The position numbers were made by a program, and so were the translations under genes. A stretch of DNA of 64,000 bases from IMG/VR virus record IMGVR_UViG_3300024502_000011, positions 60,015 through 124,014 of that record; one strand, written 5' to 3'. Position 1 is the first letter of the stretch. Each line of letters starts with the position of its first letter. Of this stretch, positions 3,860-11,156 are shown piece by piece. The notes under the pieces were generated by a model. It was not told the origin of the DNA, did not search any database, and worked only from the letters and a program-made list of their open reading frames with translations. This DNA comes from a virus.

Positions 3860-4987
3860 TTAAAATGCCTTTAAAAGAATGCAGTGTTCGTTTATCCTTC
3901 CGGTTGTTTTAATTGGTTTGGTTTTTAGACCTTCAAAAGTCTTTCTGAATACAATCTTACCACCATTGAGGATTGTTGTCAATACCTCTTCTGGTTTTCT
4001 GAGACGTTTTCCCACAGAAAGATTTTCATCAAAATTTAAAAGAGTTGTGCCTTTGATTTCAAAAGATTTATCTTTCTCAGCAACATAATTAAATAAAATT
4101 TTGTACTGAGTGTTGTAAACCCATAGATTTGTTGCACCAATAATTTTTTCAGGATTAATACTTTTTAGATTTAATTCCTGGAAATTATCCATATATTTTA
4201 GTTTTTTAATTTGCTTTGCAGCGGATTTTGGTTTCTTTGTTCGTGTTCTTTTAACAGGAACTTCTTCAACCTGTTCAGTTACAGCTAGACTTTCAAGAAA
4301 TGAAATTAACTCTAACTTCTTTTTGTATGGAATATGGCTATATGCCTCAATACAATCAGGCTCAGTTGATGTTAATTCATCTTTTACCTGATTCCATCTC
4401 TCTATAATATGTAGGTGAACTTTTTTTGGTACGTTATTTTTTGCTACCCAATCATTATAATTAAAATTAAACTTGTATGATTTATCTATAATGAAAGAAT
4501 GAACTTTTTCTTCAAACTCACTAATTAAATTAGAAGTGTGTTCATGTTCTTTTTCAATTTTATAAAGCTGCTTAATTTTGTTCTGCTTTACTTTTTCTTC
4601 ATGGATTAAAGAATGTTCTTCAATTAAATCTTTAATATGAATATTAATCTTTGATAAAGAAGATTTCTGAATAGGACCATTGTTCATGAAAATTCTTAAT
4701 GTTGGTCCATAAGGAATAAATCTCTTTTCATTAACTGATTCTAGAATATCAGTATCATCCTGTGTGAAACCAGGATTATTCTTACAGTATTCCAAAACCC
4801 ATTTCTTATGTTGCATAGGTGTAGCATTATAGCTATACCAATTATATGCAGAGCCAAGAATTGATAGTCTTGCTTTATTATGAAGTACAGTTACATCAAT
4901 GTCATTCCACTTTGGTTCCTTTGTACCAAAAGGATTGATGATGTCCTGTACACGTTCTCGTTTTTCTAGGATGTCTTCTTCAACCAT
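3860..4987 (-). CDS. Conserved T4-like phage protein of unknown function, leaderless
   Basis: 375 residues, first gene of the minus-strand early operon. The N-terminal half is mostly helical with charged stretches (about residues 120-170), followed by a basic linker (KRTRTKKPKSAAKQIKK, about 246-262) and a compact C-terminal domain beginning MDNFQELNLKSINPEKIIGA. The C-terminal part resembles a protein I associate with marine T4-like phages, but no function is established. The ATG lies exactly six bases after a perfect -10 box, so the mRNA is predicted to begin at the start codon, with no room for a Shine-Dalgarno. Confidence 0.75.
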   Translation of the reverse strand: MVEEDILEKRERVQDIINPFGTKEPKWNDIDVTVLHNKARLSILGSAYNWYSYNATPMQHKKWVLEYCKNNPGFTQDDTDILESVNEKRFIPYGPTLRIFMNNGPIQKSSLSKINIHIKDLIEEHSLIHEEKVKQNKIKQLYKIEKEHEHTSNLISEFEEKVHSFIIDKSYKFNFNYNDWVAKNNVPKKVHLHIIERWNQVKDELTSTEPDCIEAYSHIPYKKKLELISFLESLAVTEQVEEVPVKRTRTKKPKSAAKQIKKLKYMDNFQELNLKSINPEKIIGATNLWVYNTQYKILFNYVAEKDKSFEIKGTTLLNFDENLSVGKRLRKPEEVLTTILNGGKIVFRKTFEGLKTKPIKTTGRINEHCILLKAF

Positions 4988-6227: not shown

Positions 6228-6538
6228 AATATGAAGAAAAAGAAATTCTAGCAGAAGTTGAAGGTTATATTGAAAGTACATATAATGAACATTATGTTCG
6301 TGGAAATGATATTCAAGTAAATGATTTAATCATGGCTATTGGACATGGTGAAGGTTCATACATTTCAAATGCTATTGAATATCTCGCACGTTATGGAAAG
6401 AAAGATGGAAAGAATGTAAAAGATCTTTACAAGGCTATCCATAATATTATTTTATTGATTCATTTAAATCATGGTGAAAAAAATGTTGAATCTACAAAAA
6501 TTCCTAATCGAAAACAACGGAAATCTAGTTCTTCTTAA
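6224..6538 (+). CDS. DUF3310-like (SaV-type) nucleotide-metabolism-associated protein
   Basis: 104 residues. The core GEGSYISNAIEYLARYGKK followed by KNVKDLYKAIHNIILL has the layout of the DUF3310/SaV-like family (conserved N-x-x-x-Y-x-x-R-x-x-x-K-x-G, then D-L-x-K-A). These short helical proteins are common in phages and often sit near nucleotide-metabolism genes, as here next to dCMP deaminase. The start overlaps the previous stop as ATGA. The C-terminal tail is basic and Ser-rich, and its coding region overlaps the RNA ligase start. Confidence 0.6.
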   Translation: MKYEEKEILAEVEGYIESTYNEHYVRGNDIQVNDLIMAIGHGEGSYISNAIEYLARYGKKDGKNVKDLYKAIHNIILLIHLNHGEKNVESTKIPNRKQRKSSSS

Positions 6539-7607
6539 AGAACAGTTTGGTATTGATACAAACGTTCATAAAAAATATAATAATTTAATTCAATTCACAT
6601 ACAATCAAATTGATTCTTATAAGGTAAAAGCACATCCTATTGTTAGGGAATCCCGTGGTATTATTTTAGATTCTGCTGACAATTGGAAAGTTGTTGCACG
6701 TCCATTTGATAGATTTTTTAATTATGGCGAAAATGTAGATGAAGATAAATTTGATTGGACTTCATTTGTAGCACAAGAAAAAGTTGATGGTTCTTTGATG
6801 ATTGTTTATCATTATCGAAATGAATGGCATGTTGCAACAAAAGGAATGGCTTCAGCACATGGTCCTGTTGGTAATATGGATTTTTCTTTTGCAGAATTAT
6901 TTTGGAAAACTTTTAATAATCAGATGTATTTTATTTCTGACTTGAATCCTAGAAGTACATATTTGTTTGAGTTGACTTCTAAGTATAACAGAGTTGTTAC
7001 ATCTCAAAGTAACAATGATGGAAAATTAACTTTAATTGGTGTTCGTGATAATGAAAATGGACGTGAAATTCTATCCGTTATATATCGTGAGTATTTTGAT
7101 GTTGTTCGTTCTTTTTCAATGTCTACAATTGAAGAAATTCTTTCTTCTGCTAAGGAGTTAGATCCTTCTAAACAGGAAGGTTTCGTCTTAGTTGATAAAA
7201 ATTTCAATCGTGTTAAAGTTAAATCTGAAAAATATGTTTTAATTCATCATTTGAAAGATTCACTGAATGATGATAAAATTATTGATTTGATTAAATCTGG
7301 CGAAGATTCTGAAGTAATGGCTTATTTTCCAGATTTAAAGAAAAAATTTGACAAATTTAAATCATATTATTATGAATTACAAGGACATTTAGAAATTTTT
7401 TGGGAATTTTTTCCACTTGATATTAAAACAGTATCAAGAAAAGAATTTGCTTTACATGTAACTCATTCATATATTCATGAGATTCAAGGGTTCTTTTTTG
7501 CTATGTTAGATGGTAAAGTAAAAAATTCTAAAGAATGGTTATTAAATTTAAACAATAAAACTATATTAAGTATATTTAAATCGTGGAACAACACAAAAGA
7601 ACAATAG
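6483..7607 (+). CDS. RNA ligase, T4 Rnl1 family
   Basis: 374 residues from ATG 6483 (an in-frame ATG at 6471 is possible; GGTGA lies ahead of 6483). T4 Rnl1 also has 374 residues. The nucleotidyl-transfer motif I is EKVDGSL at 99-105, making Lys100 the adenylylated residue (Lys99 in T4 Rnl1). Upstream ESRGI and VARPFDRFFN, and downstream TYLFELTS, EGFVLV and VKVKSEKY, match the conserved motifs. The family seals broken tRNA after host anticodon-nuclease attack. No polynucleotide kinase partner is seen in the window. The gene overlaps its neighbours at both ends. Confidence 0.9.
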   Translation: MLNLQKFLIENNGNLVLLKEQFGIDTNVHKKYNNLIQFTYNQIDSYKVKAHPIVRESRGIILDSADNWKVVARPFDRFFNYGENVDEDKFDWTSFVAQEKVDGSLMIVYHYRNEWHVATKGMASAHGPVGNMDFSFAELFWKTFNNQMYFISDLNPRSTYLFELTSKYNRVVTSQSNNDGKLTLIGVRDNENGREILSVIYREYFDVVRSFSMSTIEEILSSAKELDPSKQEGFVLVDKNFNRVKVKSEKYVLIHHLKDSLNDDKIIDLIKSGEDSEVMAYFPDLKKKFDKFKSYYYELQGHLEIFWEFFPLDIKTVSRKEFALHVTHSYIHEIQGFFFAMLDGKVKNSKEWLLNLNNKTILSIFKSWNNTKEQ

Positions 7608-8763: not shown

Positions 8764-9228
8764 ATGGATAAGAATGTTTTTCTAGATAAGATTCGTGAGT
8801 TCAAGCGTGTTATGGAAGAACACAAGATTATGATGAAGGAGAATGCAAAGAACGTCTTTACTGAAATCTCAAAAGATATCTTTACAAATAACCCTCAACT
8901 TAACTCGTTTTCTTGGAACCAATATACACCTTATTTCAATGATGGTGAAACTTGTTATTTTTCAGTGAATCGAGATTATTACAAGATTAATAACTCTGAT
9001 GATACGATAGATTCTTGGACTTTAAACCACGAGGTATACAGACAAGATCTAGATTTAGAAGAACTGGGTTTTGATTCACTTGAATCACTTAAGAAAGCAT
9101 ATAACGACATTGACGAACTAATGAATATCTTTGATGATTCGGATCTAGAAGAGATGTTTGGTGATCATGCTGAAGTTACAGTATCACGAAATGATGGTGT
9201 AACAGTAGATGGATATGATCATGATTAA
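8764..9228 (+). CDS. Unknown acidic protein, last gene before the tmRNA
   Basis: 154 residues from ATG 8764, one base after the preceding stop. The N-terminal third is helical and charged; the rest is strongly acidic (DLDLEELGFDSLESL, DDSDLEEMFGDHAE). It has no membrane segment and no recognised domain. The acidic character is typical of small phage host-interaction or DNA-mimic proteins, but no evidence goes beyond composition. Confidence 0.65.
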   Translation: MDKNVFLDKIREFKRVMEEHKIMMKENAKNVFTEISKDIFTNNPQLNSFSWNQYTPYFNDGETCYFSVNRDYYKINNSDDTIDSWTLNHEVYRQDLDLEELGFDSLESLKKAYNDIDELMNIFDDSDLEEMFGDHAEVTVSRNDGVTVDGYDHD

Positions 9229-9239
9229 TGATTAAACCA

Positions 9240-9247
9240 TATAAATA
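9240..9247 (+). promoter_or_regulatory. T4-type late promoter ahead of the tmRNA
   Basis: Exact TATAAATA on the plus strand, 12 bases after the preceding stop codon. The predicted start is about 9253-9254, just before the first conserved part of the tmRNA acceptor piece. The same octamer precedes the late genes on the other strand. Confidence 0.6.
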
Positions 9248-9316
9248 TTAAATGATAGGTGTTGATCTGGATTGAATGCATTTCGGACCTGGGTTCGACT
9301 CCCAGCGTCTCCACCA

Positions 9317-9415
9317 AAAGCACATTGTGAGGAGCTAGTTGCATGGCAAATTCGAACAAAGTGCAACCCAAGATATAATAGTGTACATAAAAATCTTGAG
9401 CAGTGTGCTTTTGGG
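9317..9415 (+). other. Intervening segment of the permuted tmRNA precursor
   Basis: 99 nt between the mature CCA end and the mature 5' end. Its ends are complementary: AAAGCACA (9317-9324) with TGTGCTTT (9404-9411), so the precursor forms a closed hairpin extending the acceptor stem. RNases P and Z (or equivalents) would excise it, as in known two-piece tmRNAs. An internal GTTGCA/TGCAAC pair gives a further stem. Confidence 0.8.
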
Positions 9416-9499
9416 GGGGACGAAATGGTTTCGACGGGATGAGCTAGAGAAGGGGAATCTATCCAGTAGCCGACTACTGTAAAATCGGGAACTATAAAC

Positions 9500-9538
9500 G
9501 CAAATACTAACGTATTAGCAATGTCTGCTGCTGCCTAA
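9500..9538 (+). CDS. tmRNA proteolysis-tag reading frame (ANTNVLAMSAAA)
   Basis: The resume codon is GCA at 9500, following ATAAAC as in other tmRNAs. Twelve codons end at TAA 9536-9538 and give ANTNVLAMSAAA, with the charged alanine added in front. The A-N start and small hydrophobic AAA end are the expected format for recognition by Clp-type unfoldases. No other frame here gives a plausible tag. Confidence 0.85.
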   Translation, partial: ANTNVLAMSAAA

Positions 9539-9593
9539 ACAGTTTCAGACGGGGTTGGCAACTTTCCTTGCAACAGAAAAGTTGCAATTTAAC

Positions 9594-9622
9594 TTGACAA
9601 TAAATTTAAATTATGTTACAAT
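9594..9622 (+). promoter_or_regulatory. Sigma70-type promoter immediately after the tmRNA
   Basis: TTGACA (9594-9599), 17-bp spacer, TACAAT (9617-9622) preceded by TGT (extended -10 type). The predicted start near 9629 leaves only about 58 nt before the terminator at 9664-9686. Confidence 0.75.
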
Positions 9623-9628
9623 TGTATT

Positions 9629-9686
9629 GTATAGTTAGATAAAAATTTAAGGAGAATCTAATCGGCGCAGATTCTGCGCCTTTTTT
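9629..9686 (+). promoter_or_regulatory. Short leader with mutually exclusive hairpins (attenuator or small RNA)
   Basis: AGAATCT (9653-9659) can pair with AGATTCT (9669-9675), enclosing a 9-nt loop. The second strand overlaps the terminator stem GGCGCAG/CTGCGCC (9664-9670 with 9674-9680), so the two structures exclude each other. An AAGGAG Shine-Dalgarno-like sequence (9649-9654) precedes with no start codon at proper distance. This may be an attenuated leader of the hydrolase gene at 9700 or a small RNA of about 58 nt. Confidence 0.5.
9664..9686 (+). terminator. Intrinsic terminator
   Basis: GGCGCAG (9664-9670), loop ATT, CTGCGCC (9674-9680), then TTTTTT (9681-9686). It ends transcripts from the 9594 promoter and probably also those of the tmRNA. 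Confidence 0.88.
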
Positions 9687-10139: not shown

Positions 10140-11156
10140 ATGAAACTATTAGATCAGAACATCAAGGGTGATTTCACCCAGGAATTAAGAACTAAGTTGT
10201 ATAATAAGATTATTGGTCAAACGGAGCCAATAGAAATTATTTGTGAATATTACCAATTATATAAAACTAAATTAATTCCAACTAATCGCCCGATTGCCAA
10301 TCTTTTAATGATTGGTCCTACAGGCACTGGTAAAACAAGAGTAGTTGAAGCTTTTGCAGAAAGTGTTTTTGGTTCTGATAAAGCGTTTATTAAGATAGAT
10401 TGTGGGGAATTTCAACATAGTCATGAAATTTCTAAACTTGTTGGTTCTCCACCTGGATATCTTGGACATAGAGAAACACATCCAATTTTTTCTGAAGAAA
10501 AGATAAAGCAACATCAAACAGAACAAAATAAATTTACAATTGTTTTGTTTGATGAAATTGAAAAATCTTCTGATGCACTATGGAATTTATTGCTTGGTAT
10601 TCTTGATAAAGGTACATTAACATTAGGTGATAATAAACAGGTAGATATGTCTTCTTGTTTTATTATTATGACAAGTAATATTGGTGCTCAGAAATTAGCA
10701 CAATTGAAGAAAAAAAGAGATCTAGGATTTACACAAACTGATAAATTAAATTCTGTCTCTGACATGAGAAATTTTTCTATTTCTGAAGTAAAGAAAAAGT
10801 TTACACCAGAATTCATTAATCGTCTCGATAGAATGATTTATTTTAGAGAATTAAATCATGATGATTATATTAAAATTCTTAATATTGAATTAGCATTATT
10901 ACAAGATCTAATAATGTATAAAACTAAGCAAAATATCTTTATTGAGTTTACAGATAAGTCAAAAGAGTATATCTTGGCAAAAGGTATTAGTAAAGAATAT
11001 GGTGCAAGAGATTTAAAGAGAATTATAGATAGAAGTGTAAAGATTAGTTTAAGTAATCTAATAGCTAGTAAACAAATTGAACAATATGATATTGTAAAAG
11101 TAGATTATGATGATGATTTTAAATTTTATAAGATTGAACCAGAGGATTTATTATAA
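10140..11156 (+). CDS. Single-ring Clp-type AAA+ unfoldase with LGF ClpP-docking-like loop
   Basis: 338 residues, matching the second ATPase domain of ClpA/ClpB plus the C-terminal small domain. Visible parts: Walker A GPTGTGKT (59-66), pore loop SPPGYLGH (103-110), Walker B VLFDEIE (135-141), sensor-1 MTSN (177-180), FTPEFINRLD with arginine finger about Arg228, and sensor-2 GAR (288-290). The tripeptide LGF (195-197) lies exactly where ClpA has IGL and ClpX has IGF, the ClpP-binding loop, which ClpB lacks. The N-terminal substrate domain and first ring are absent. It begins five bases after the hydrolase stop. Role inferred: unfolding proteins, possibly for host ClpP. Confidence 0.85.
   Translation: MKLLDQNIKGDFTQELRTKLYNKIIGQTEPIEIICEYYQLYKTKLIPTNRPIANLLMIGPTGTGKTRVVEAFAESVFGSDKAFIKIDCGEFQHSHEISKLVGSPPGYLGHRETHPIFSEEKIKQHQTEQNKFTIVLFDEIEKSSDALWNLLLGILDKGTLTLGDNKQVDMSSCFIIMTSNIGAQKLAQLKKKRDLGFTQTDKLNSVSDMRNFSISEVKKKFTPEFINRLDRMIYFRELNHDDYIKILNIELALLQDLIMYKTKQNIFIEFTDKSKEYILAKGISKEYGARDLKRIIDRSVKISLSNLIASKQIEQYDIVKVDYDDDFKFYKIEPEDLL

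Follow-up and report, generated by a model that had tools for sequence, protein, structure and literature searches.

Circularly permuted tmRNA genes have been published for Pelagibacter phage Mosig and Methylophilales phage Melnitz, and 53 of 133 unique phage tmRNA structures are permuted, 50 of these 53 coming from marine or aquatic samples (PMC9004378). The 2025 tmRNA database holds 79 phage sequences and 11,946 permuted sequences; LAGLIDADG genes are described in group I introns of the tmRNA T-loop, and a tRNA gene and a repetitive element in permuted spacers (PMC11915505).

Here, a permuted tmRNA was analyzed in a stretch of 64,000 nucleotides, positions 60015-124014 of a 124-kb IMG/VR virus record (the window). 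The gene content is that of a T4-like myovirus, including a major head protein, tail sheath, PhoH and an SbcC-like subunit, and the capsid protein shares 60-62% identity with its counterparts in the Pelagibacter phages Mosig and HTVC008M and in Melnitz, in line with the myovirus named in the original prediction. ARAGORN found 22 tRNA genes in the rest of the record (L008, 52-8842; L010, 9295-9455), two of them for tryptophan. A DNA search of isolate phages with the window tmRNA gave no match. Since permuted forms have been published in Melnitz, Mosig and about 50 other phages, this tmRNA is not new as a category; by itself it is ordinary for its class and extends the known phage permuted tmRNAs by one. 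From the sequence comparisons described below we consider it probable that it is a late-transcribed RNA which rescues ribosomes with its own tag and whose gene is also a homing site of HNH endonucleases.

Anatomy of the permuted tmRNA gene

Judged from its sequence, region 9254-9592 is a complete circularly permuted tmRNA gene of a T4-like myovirus. The Rfam covariance models, on which the original prediction had been made to stand or fall, clearly recognize it: RF04321 (tmRNA_permuted), a model of the tRNA-like domain only, matches 9254-9538 on the plus strand with 120.8 bits (E=4.8e-23), compared to a gathering cut-off of 47. Among the older clade models reported the best fit is that of beta_tmRNA (RF01850; 9207-9592, 99.8 bits) and not, as had been proposed, that of an alpha or cyano model. 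A permuted tmRNA at 9224-9629 with the tag ANTNVLAMSAAA and a stop was also called by ARAGORN. The features are as follows.

9240-9247, plus strand: TATAAATA, exact match, putative T4-type late promoter element
9254-9316, plus strand: acceptor piece (P2 5' strand, T-arm, acceptor 3' strand, discriminator A, CCA), from the RF04321 alignment with the pairs checked
9254-9258 with 9459-9463, plus strand: P2a, 5/5 pairs
9279-9285 with 9435-9441, plus strand: P2b, 7/7 pairs
9289-9305, plus strand: T-arm, within the acceptor piece
9289-9293 with 9301-9305, plus strand: T-stem, 5/5 pairs, loop TTCGACT
9306-9312, plus strand: acceptor 3' strand, slightly corrected from its earlier placing
9416-9422 with 9306-9312, plus strand: acceptor stem, 7/7 pairs, G3-U70
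9313 and 9314-9316, plus strand: discriminator A and encoded CCA, read on the sequence
9317-9415, plus strand: spacer (intervening sequence), predicted to be removed; closing stem 9317-9324 with 9404-9411, 8/8 pairs
9416-9592, plus strand: coding piece (acceptor 5' strand GGGGACG at 9416-9422, P2 3' strand, tag frame, 3' domain), from RF04321 to 9538 and RF01850 to 9592; the 3' end is approximate
9500-9538, plus strand: tag reading frame ANTNVLAMSAAA plus stop, from ARAGORN and translation

The acceptor half preceding the half with GGGGACG, the seven-base acceptor pairing with G3-U70, the 8-bp spacer stem and the complete tag had all been read correctly in the original prediction. Together, the model score, the order of the two pieces, the acceptor stem, the CCA and the stop-ended tag place the RNA among the permuted tmRNAs. 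The precursor folds with -43.2 kcal/mol. The same RNA is present in two more contigs of the same phage (L002 and L003) and its spacer and tag also occur in contig L004, arguing against a chance resemblance.

The spacer contains a mini reading frame (9343-9378, MANSNKVQPKI followed by a stop) with GAGGAG ahead of it, which is kept in L004 and could be due to chance or be a remnant of a former gene. Downstream of the tmRNA, a promoter-like site at 9594-9622 (11/12 consensus bases, TG before the -10) is followed by a strong terminator-like hairpin at 9664-9680; this segment (9594-9680) lies before the endolysin gene and possibly gives rise to a short RNA or an attenuated leader.

Promoter, tag and neighbouring genes

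The element TATAAATA stops 6 nt upstream of the acceptor piece, about the distance at which transcripts start from T4 late promoters. It occurs 13 times in the window, no more often than in shuffled sequences; on the minus strand, however, 8 of the 11 copies are found no more than 60 nt ahead of a gene start, a placing shared by only 4.9% of positions. In 15 of 19 other phage tmRNAs the element is found with at most one mismatch at a nearly equal distance upstream of the acceptor piece, its first base being 74-81 nt from the CCA end, as compared to 77 nt in the window. A late promoter predicts that such tmRNAs act late in infection and not early. This late role conflicts with the early promoter suggested for the Melnitz tmRNA (PMC9004378).

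According to one alternative, which we regard as unlikely, the phage tmRNA would mainly put its own tag on stalled proteins, to be read by a phage ClpC-D2-like unfoldase together with host ClpP. An AAA+ protein encoded two genes downstream of the tmRNA (10140-11156) matches the ClpC D2 ring (E 1e-58). It contains no other Clp domains, and the alignment places LGF where ClpC has the VGF loop, the ClpP docking site. The AAA+ gene is a close neighbour of the tmRNA in the window, L014, L023 and L024, and the window tag ends in MSAAA as opposed to LAA in nearly all other phage tags seen, both of which would suit such a pathway. However, this neighbourhood is conserved in one phage lineage only, in the records of L005 and L006 the AAA+ gene is present but no tmRNA was detected, a long distance separates the two genes in the record of L007, and ClpP gave no match in the virus record. 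A few genes upstream of the tmRNA, the window also encodes a T4 RNA ligase 1-like protein (6471-7607; Pfam RNA_lig_T4_1).

A complete tag frame, kept in L014 with one amino-acid change and a silent change in the last alanine codon, speaks against an RNA that merely competes with host tmRNA or SmpB. The precedent for such an inhibitor or decoy is the tmRNA-like RNA of DS6A (PMC11915505), which is phage-borne like that of the window and inhibits host tmRNA, but is tag-less. SmpB gave no match in the virus record, so that host SmpB would be needed for the RNA to replace host tmRNA or change the tag during infection, as the original prediction suggested; a phage without SmpB would also be compatible with a decoy, a role to which we nevertheless assign a very small probability.

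Allele states and endonuclease genes

L004 belongs to the same phage species as the window or a very near one, the 2.5 kb that follow (endolysin to PhoH) being 99.8% identical. The spacer is 94% identical, whereas identity drops to 46% in the acceptor piece and the start of the coding piece differs; the tag domain is kept. Two acceptor, two P2a and one spacer-stem pair are changed on both sides, and all pairs of these helices are retained, including G3-U70. Directly upstream of the L004 tmRNA lies a gene for a 219-aa HNH protein, the stop codon of which overlaps the acceptor piece. Because this gene precedes the tmRNA and a window-like spacer sits between the replaced flanks, L004 would require more than one exchange, or recombination together with selection for matching halves.

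In L014, a truncated window-type acceptor piece (51/53 nt as in the window, ending just past the T-arm) is followed by an HNH gene 91% identical to that of L004 and by a complete permuted tmRNA sharing the P2a strands of L004. Decay was considered as the origin of its non-TTCGA T-loop and rejected; a loop of this kind (GGCgGUA) belongs to the alpha_tmRNA consensus, and the domain is thus of the alpha type. In L024 and L025 most of the HNH gene is gone, but the L004/L014-type domain is retained. On the basis of these sequences the window, L002 and L003 are read as endonuclease-free alleles, L004 and L014 as occupied ones, and L024 and L025 as cases of later loss. The tmRNA also adjoins an endonuclease gene in L173, L195 and L196. 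The L014-type arrangement recurs, as L173 shows the same order of acceptor remnant, HNH gene and complete tmRNA and L195, more doubtfully, has such a remnant as well. L158 and L159 contain a complete permuted tmRNA and a partial tmRNA match nearby; between the two, an HNH gene is encoded on the opposite strand. The sister phage L023 has the same gene order, and its tmRNA (4621-4815) has an alpha-type domain and a very short spacer; its tag was read by eye as ADTKVFAMAA.

Each of the 23 acceptor stems compared pairs at 7/7 positions with G3-U70, and their 3' strands comprise 13 different sequences. When strands were swapped between loci, 65 of 506 combinations paired, a count to which loci contribute whose stems are the same or G-U-compatible; this also applies to a smaller control, in which 20 of 258 paired. 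Stems maintained through double changes, between strains and across the 23 phage tmRNAs, make it highly improbable that the gene is an unused relic of a host tmRNA gene captured by chance, even if capture of ssrA from the host has been proposed for Melnitz (PMC9004378).

With regard to the reading that we prefer, the tmRNA gene as a homing site, searches with the L004 and L014 HNH proteins identified at least 19 distinct phage tmRNA loci with an endonuclease of this family inside the spacer (34 contigs among the best 80 relatives). The spacer consists largely of this gene (464-642 nt where measured). The HNH proteins match the PHROG 655 homing endonuclease profile with E values of 7e-13 or better, and the L004, L014 and spacer-case genes combine this profile with the HNH motif; their Pfam HNH scores are 18.0-23.0 bits, most of them under the curated cut-off of 21.4. 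The spacer-case genes sit 3' of the CCA and not in self-splicing T-loop introns, and no intron family reached the Rfam gathering score in the window or the occupied loci scanned.

In 17 of the 19 spacer cases a leader is present between the CCA and the start codon. Sixteen of these leaders fold well below letter-shuffled controls (z -3.3 to -8.5) and have a likely ribosome site in or beside the leader stem; an exact TATAAATA lies between CCA and endonuclease start in 13/19. T4 I-TevI is under the control of a hairpin that covers the ribosome site and is not formed by transcripts from an internal late promoter (PMC2988022). By their sequence, the leaders of the spacer endonucleases are I-TevI-like in combining a hairpin with a putative late promoter.

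The closest pair of empty and occupied loci is L208 and L210. In L208, L211 and L217 the spacer is short (80-85 nt) and the stem is CGCCTCC/GGGGGCG, whereas L210 carries an HNH gene in the spacer and the stem CCGGTCC/GGGCCGG. L208 and L210 are identical in the acceptor piece up to the stem (54/54) and nearly so in the about 200 nt past the 5' strand of the stem (197/201, 98%). Three acceptor-stem pairs differ in both of their bases, and they lie exactly at the junction of the RNA with the spacer. Further upstream identity falls to 44% over 90 nt, and the two are thus related phages and not one strain. L209 contains another HNH gene with a longer replaced tract on both sides. As both stem strands flank the spacer and would be copied together, pairing would be kept while the target is changed; co-conversion during homing appears to be the simplest reading of this difference. 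Presence and absence of the endonuclease gene at one site within near-identical flanks is thus seen in L208/L210 as well as in window/L004.

Among isolate phages no spacer-resident endonuclease was found, all invaded loci being on metagenome contigs. The related endonucleases examined in cyanophage isolates lie between structural, replication or hypothetical genes with no adjoining tmRNA, and a search of bacterial genome contigs for the family gave 240 pattern matches, none of which was confirmed. Among the titles and abstracts from full-text searches, with preprints and most subscription papers outside their reach, none reports an endonuclease within the spacer of a permuted tmRNA, and the association appears to be new. 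There is hardly any likelihood that it arose by hitch-hiking or faulty assembly and is uninformative on the tmRNA. All cases do come from metagenomic contigs, and window and L004 also differ in the gene that precedes the tmRNA (65%). Against this stand 19 distinct spacer cases, several of which recur on as many as five contigs; the ends of their endonuclease genes vary between 12 nt before the coding piece and 40 nt inside it, their acceptor strands pair across about 500 nt, and L208/L210 form a matched empty/occupied pair.

Proposed homing site and comparison with known systems

The sequences display the gene anatomy, the paired double changes, the occupied and empty alleles, and the leaders with hairpin and late promoter element. 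From these we infer expression, processing into two pieces, charging, trans-translation, cleavage and homing. The tmRNA would be transcribed late in infection from TATAAATA at 9240, and host tRNA-processing enzymes would remove the spacer, leaving acceptor and coding pieces joined through the acceptor helix and those of P2. Charged with alanine via G3-U70 and bound by host SmpB, the RNA would then rescue stalled ribosomes and add the tag ANTNVLAMSAAA. Its gene would serve as homing site for the HNH endonuclease family, the window representing an endonuclease-free allele; elsewhere, the endonuclease gene is found within the spacer, or is flanked by a truncated old acceptor piece and a complete tmRNA. 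An endonuclease in the spacer need not harm the mature RNA, since the spacer is predicted to be discarded. Break-repair copying would carry both acceptor-stem strands together, so that pairing survives and the target sequence changes.

There is a good chance that the spacer is a splicing-free counterpart of a mobile intron, into which HNH endonucleases home and where each transfer swaps the whole stem, leaving the RNA functional and removing the cutting site. If so, mobile endonucleases can find shelter in a split, processed RNA gene with no need of self-splicing, and it would be clear why phage tmRNAs exchange the two halves of their tRNA-like domains together. The empty and occupied pairs allow direct tests of homing.

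Like the window phage, Melnitz and Mosig are T4-like, have a permuted tmRNA and are related by capsid protein. Melnitz has a glutamine riboswitch besides its proposed early promoter, whereas the window has a late-type promoter element before the gene, and neither in it nor in another 60,000 bases of the record did a riboswitch reach the Rfam gathering score. Bacterial permuted tmRNAs (RF04321, RF01849-RF01851) share the gene order, the G3-U70 acceptor stem, the spacer and the tag; unlike them, the window tmRNA is phage-borne, and beta-like or alpha-like domains vary among close phage relatives. As with the LAGLIDADG genes in tmRNA T-loop group I introns (PMC11915505), a homing endonuclease gene is lodged in a tmRNA gene, but here it is of the HNH family and located in the spacer of a permuted gene or ahead of the acceptor piece, with no intron found. 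T4 I-TevI, I-TevIII, mob and seg share the late promoter and the hairpin over the ribosome site ahead of the endonuclease gene, and I-TevIII and mob are of the HNH family as well, with flank co-conversion likewise (PMC2988022). In contrast to these T4 endonucleases, the target here would be a tmRNA gene, and a spacer takes the place of the intron.
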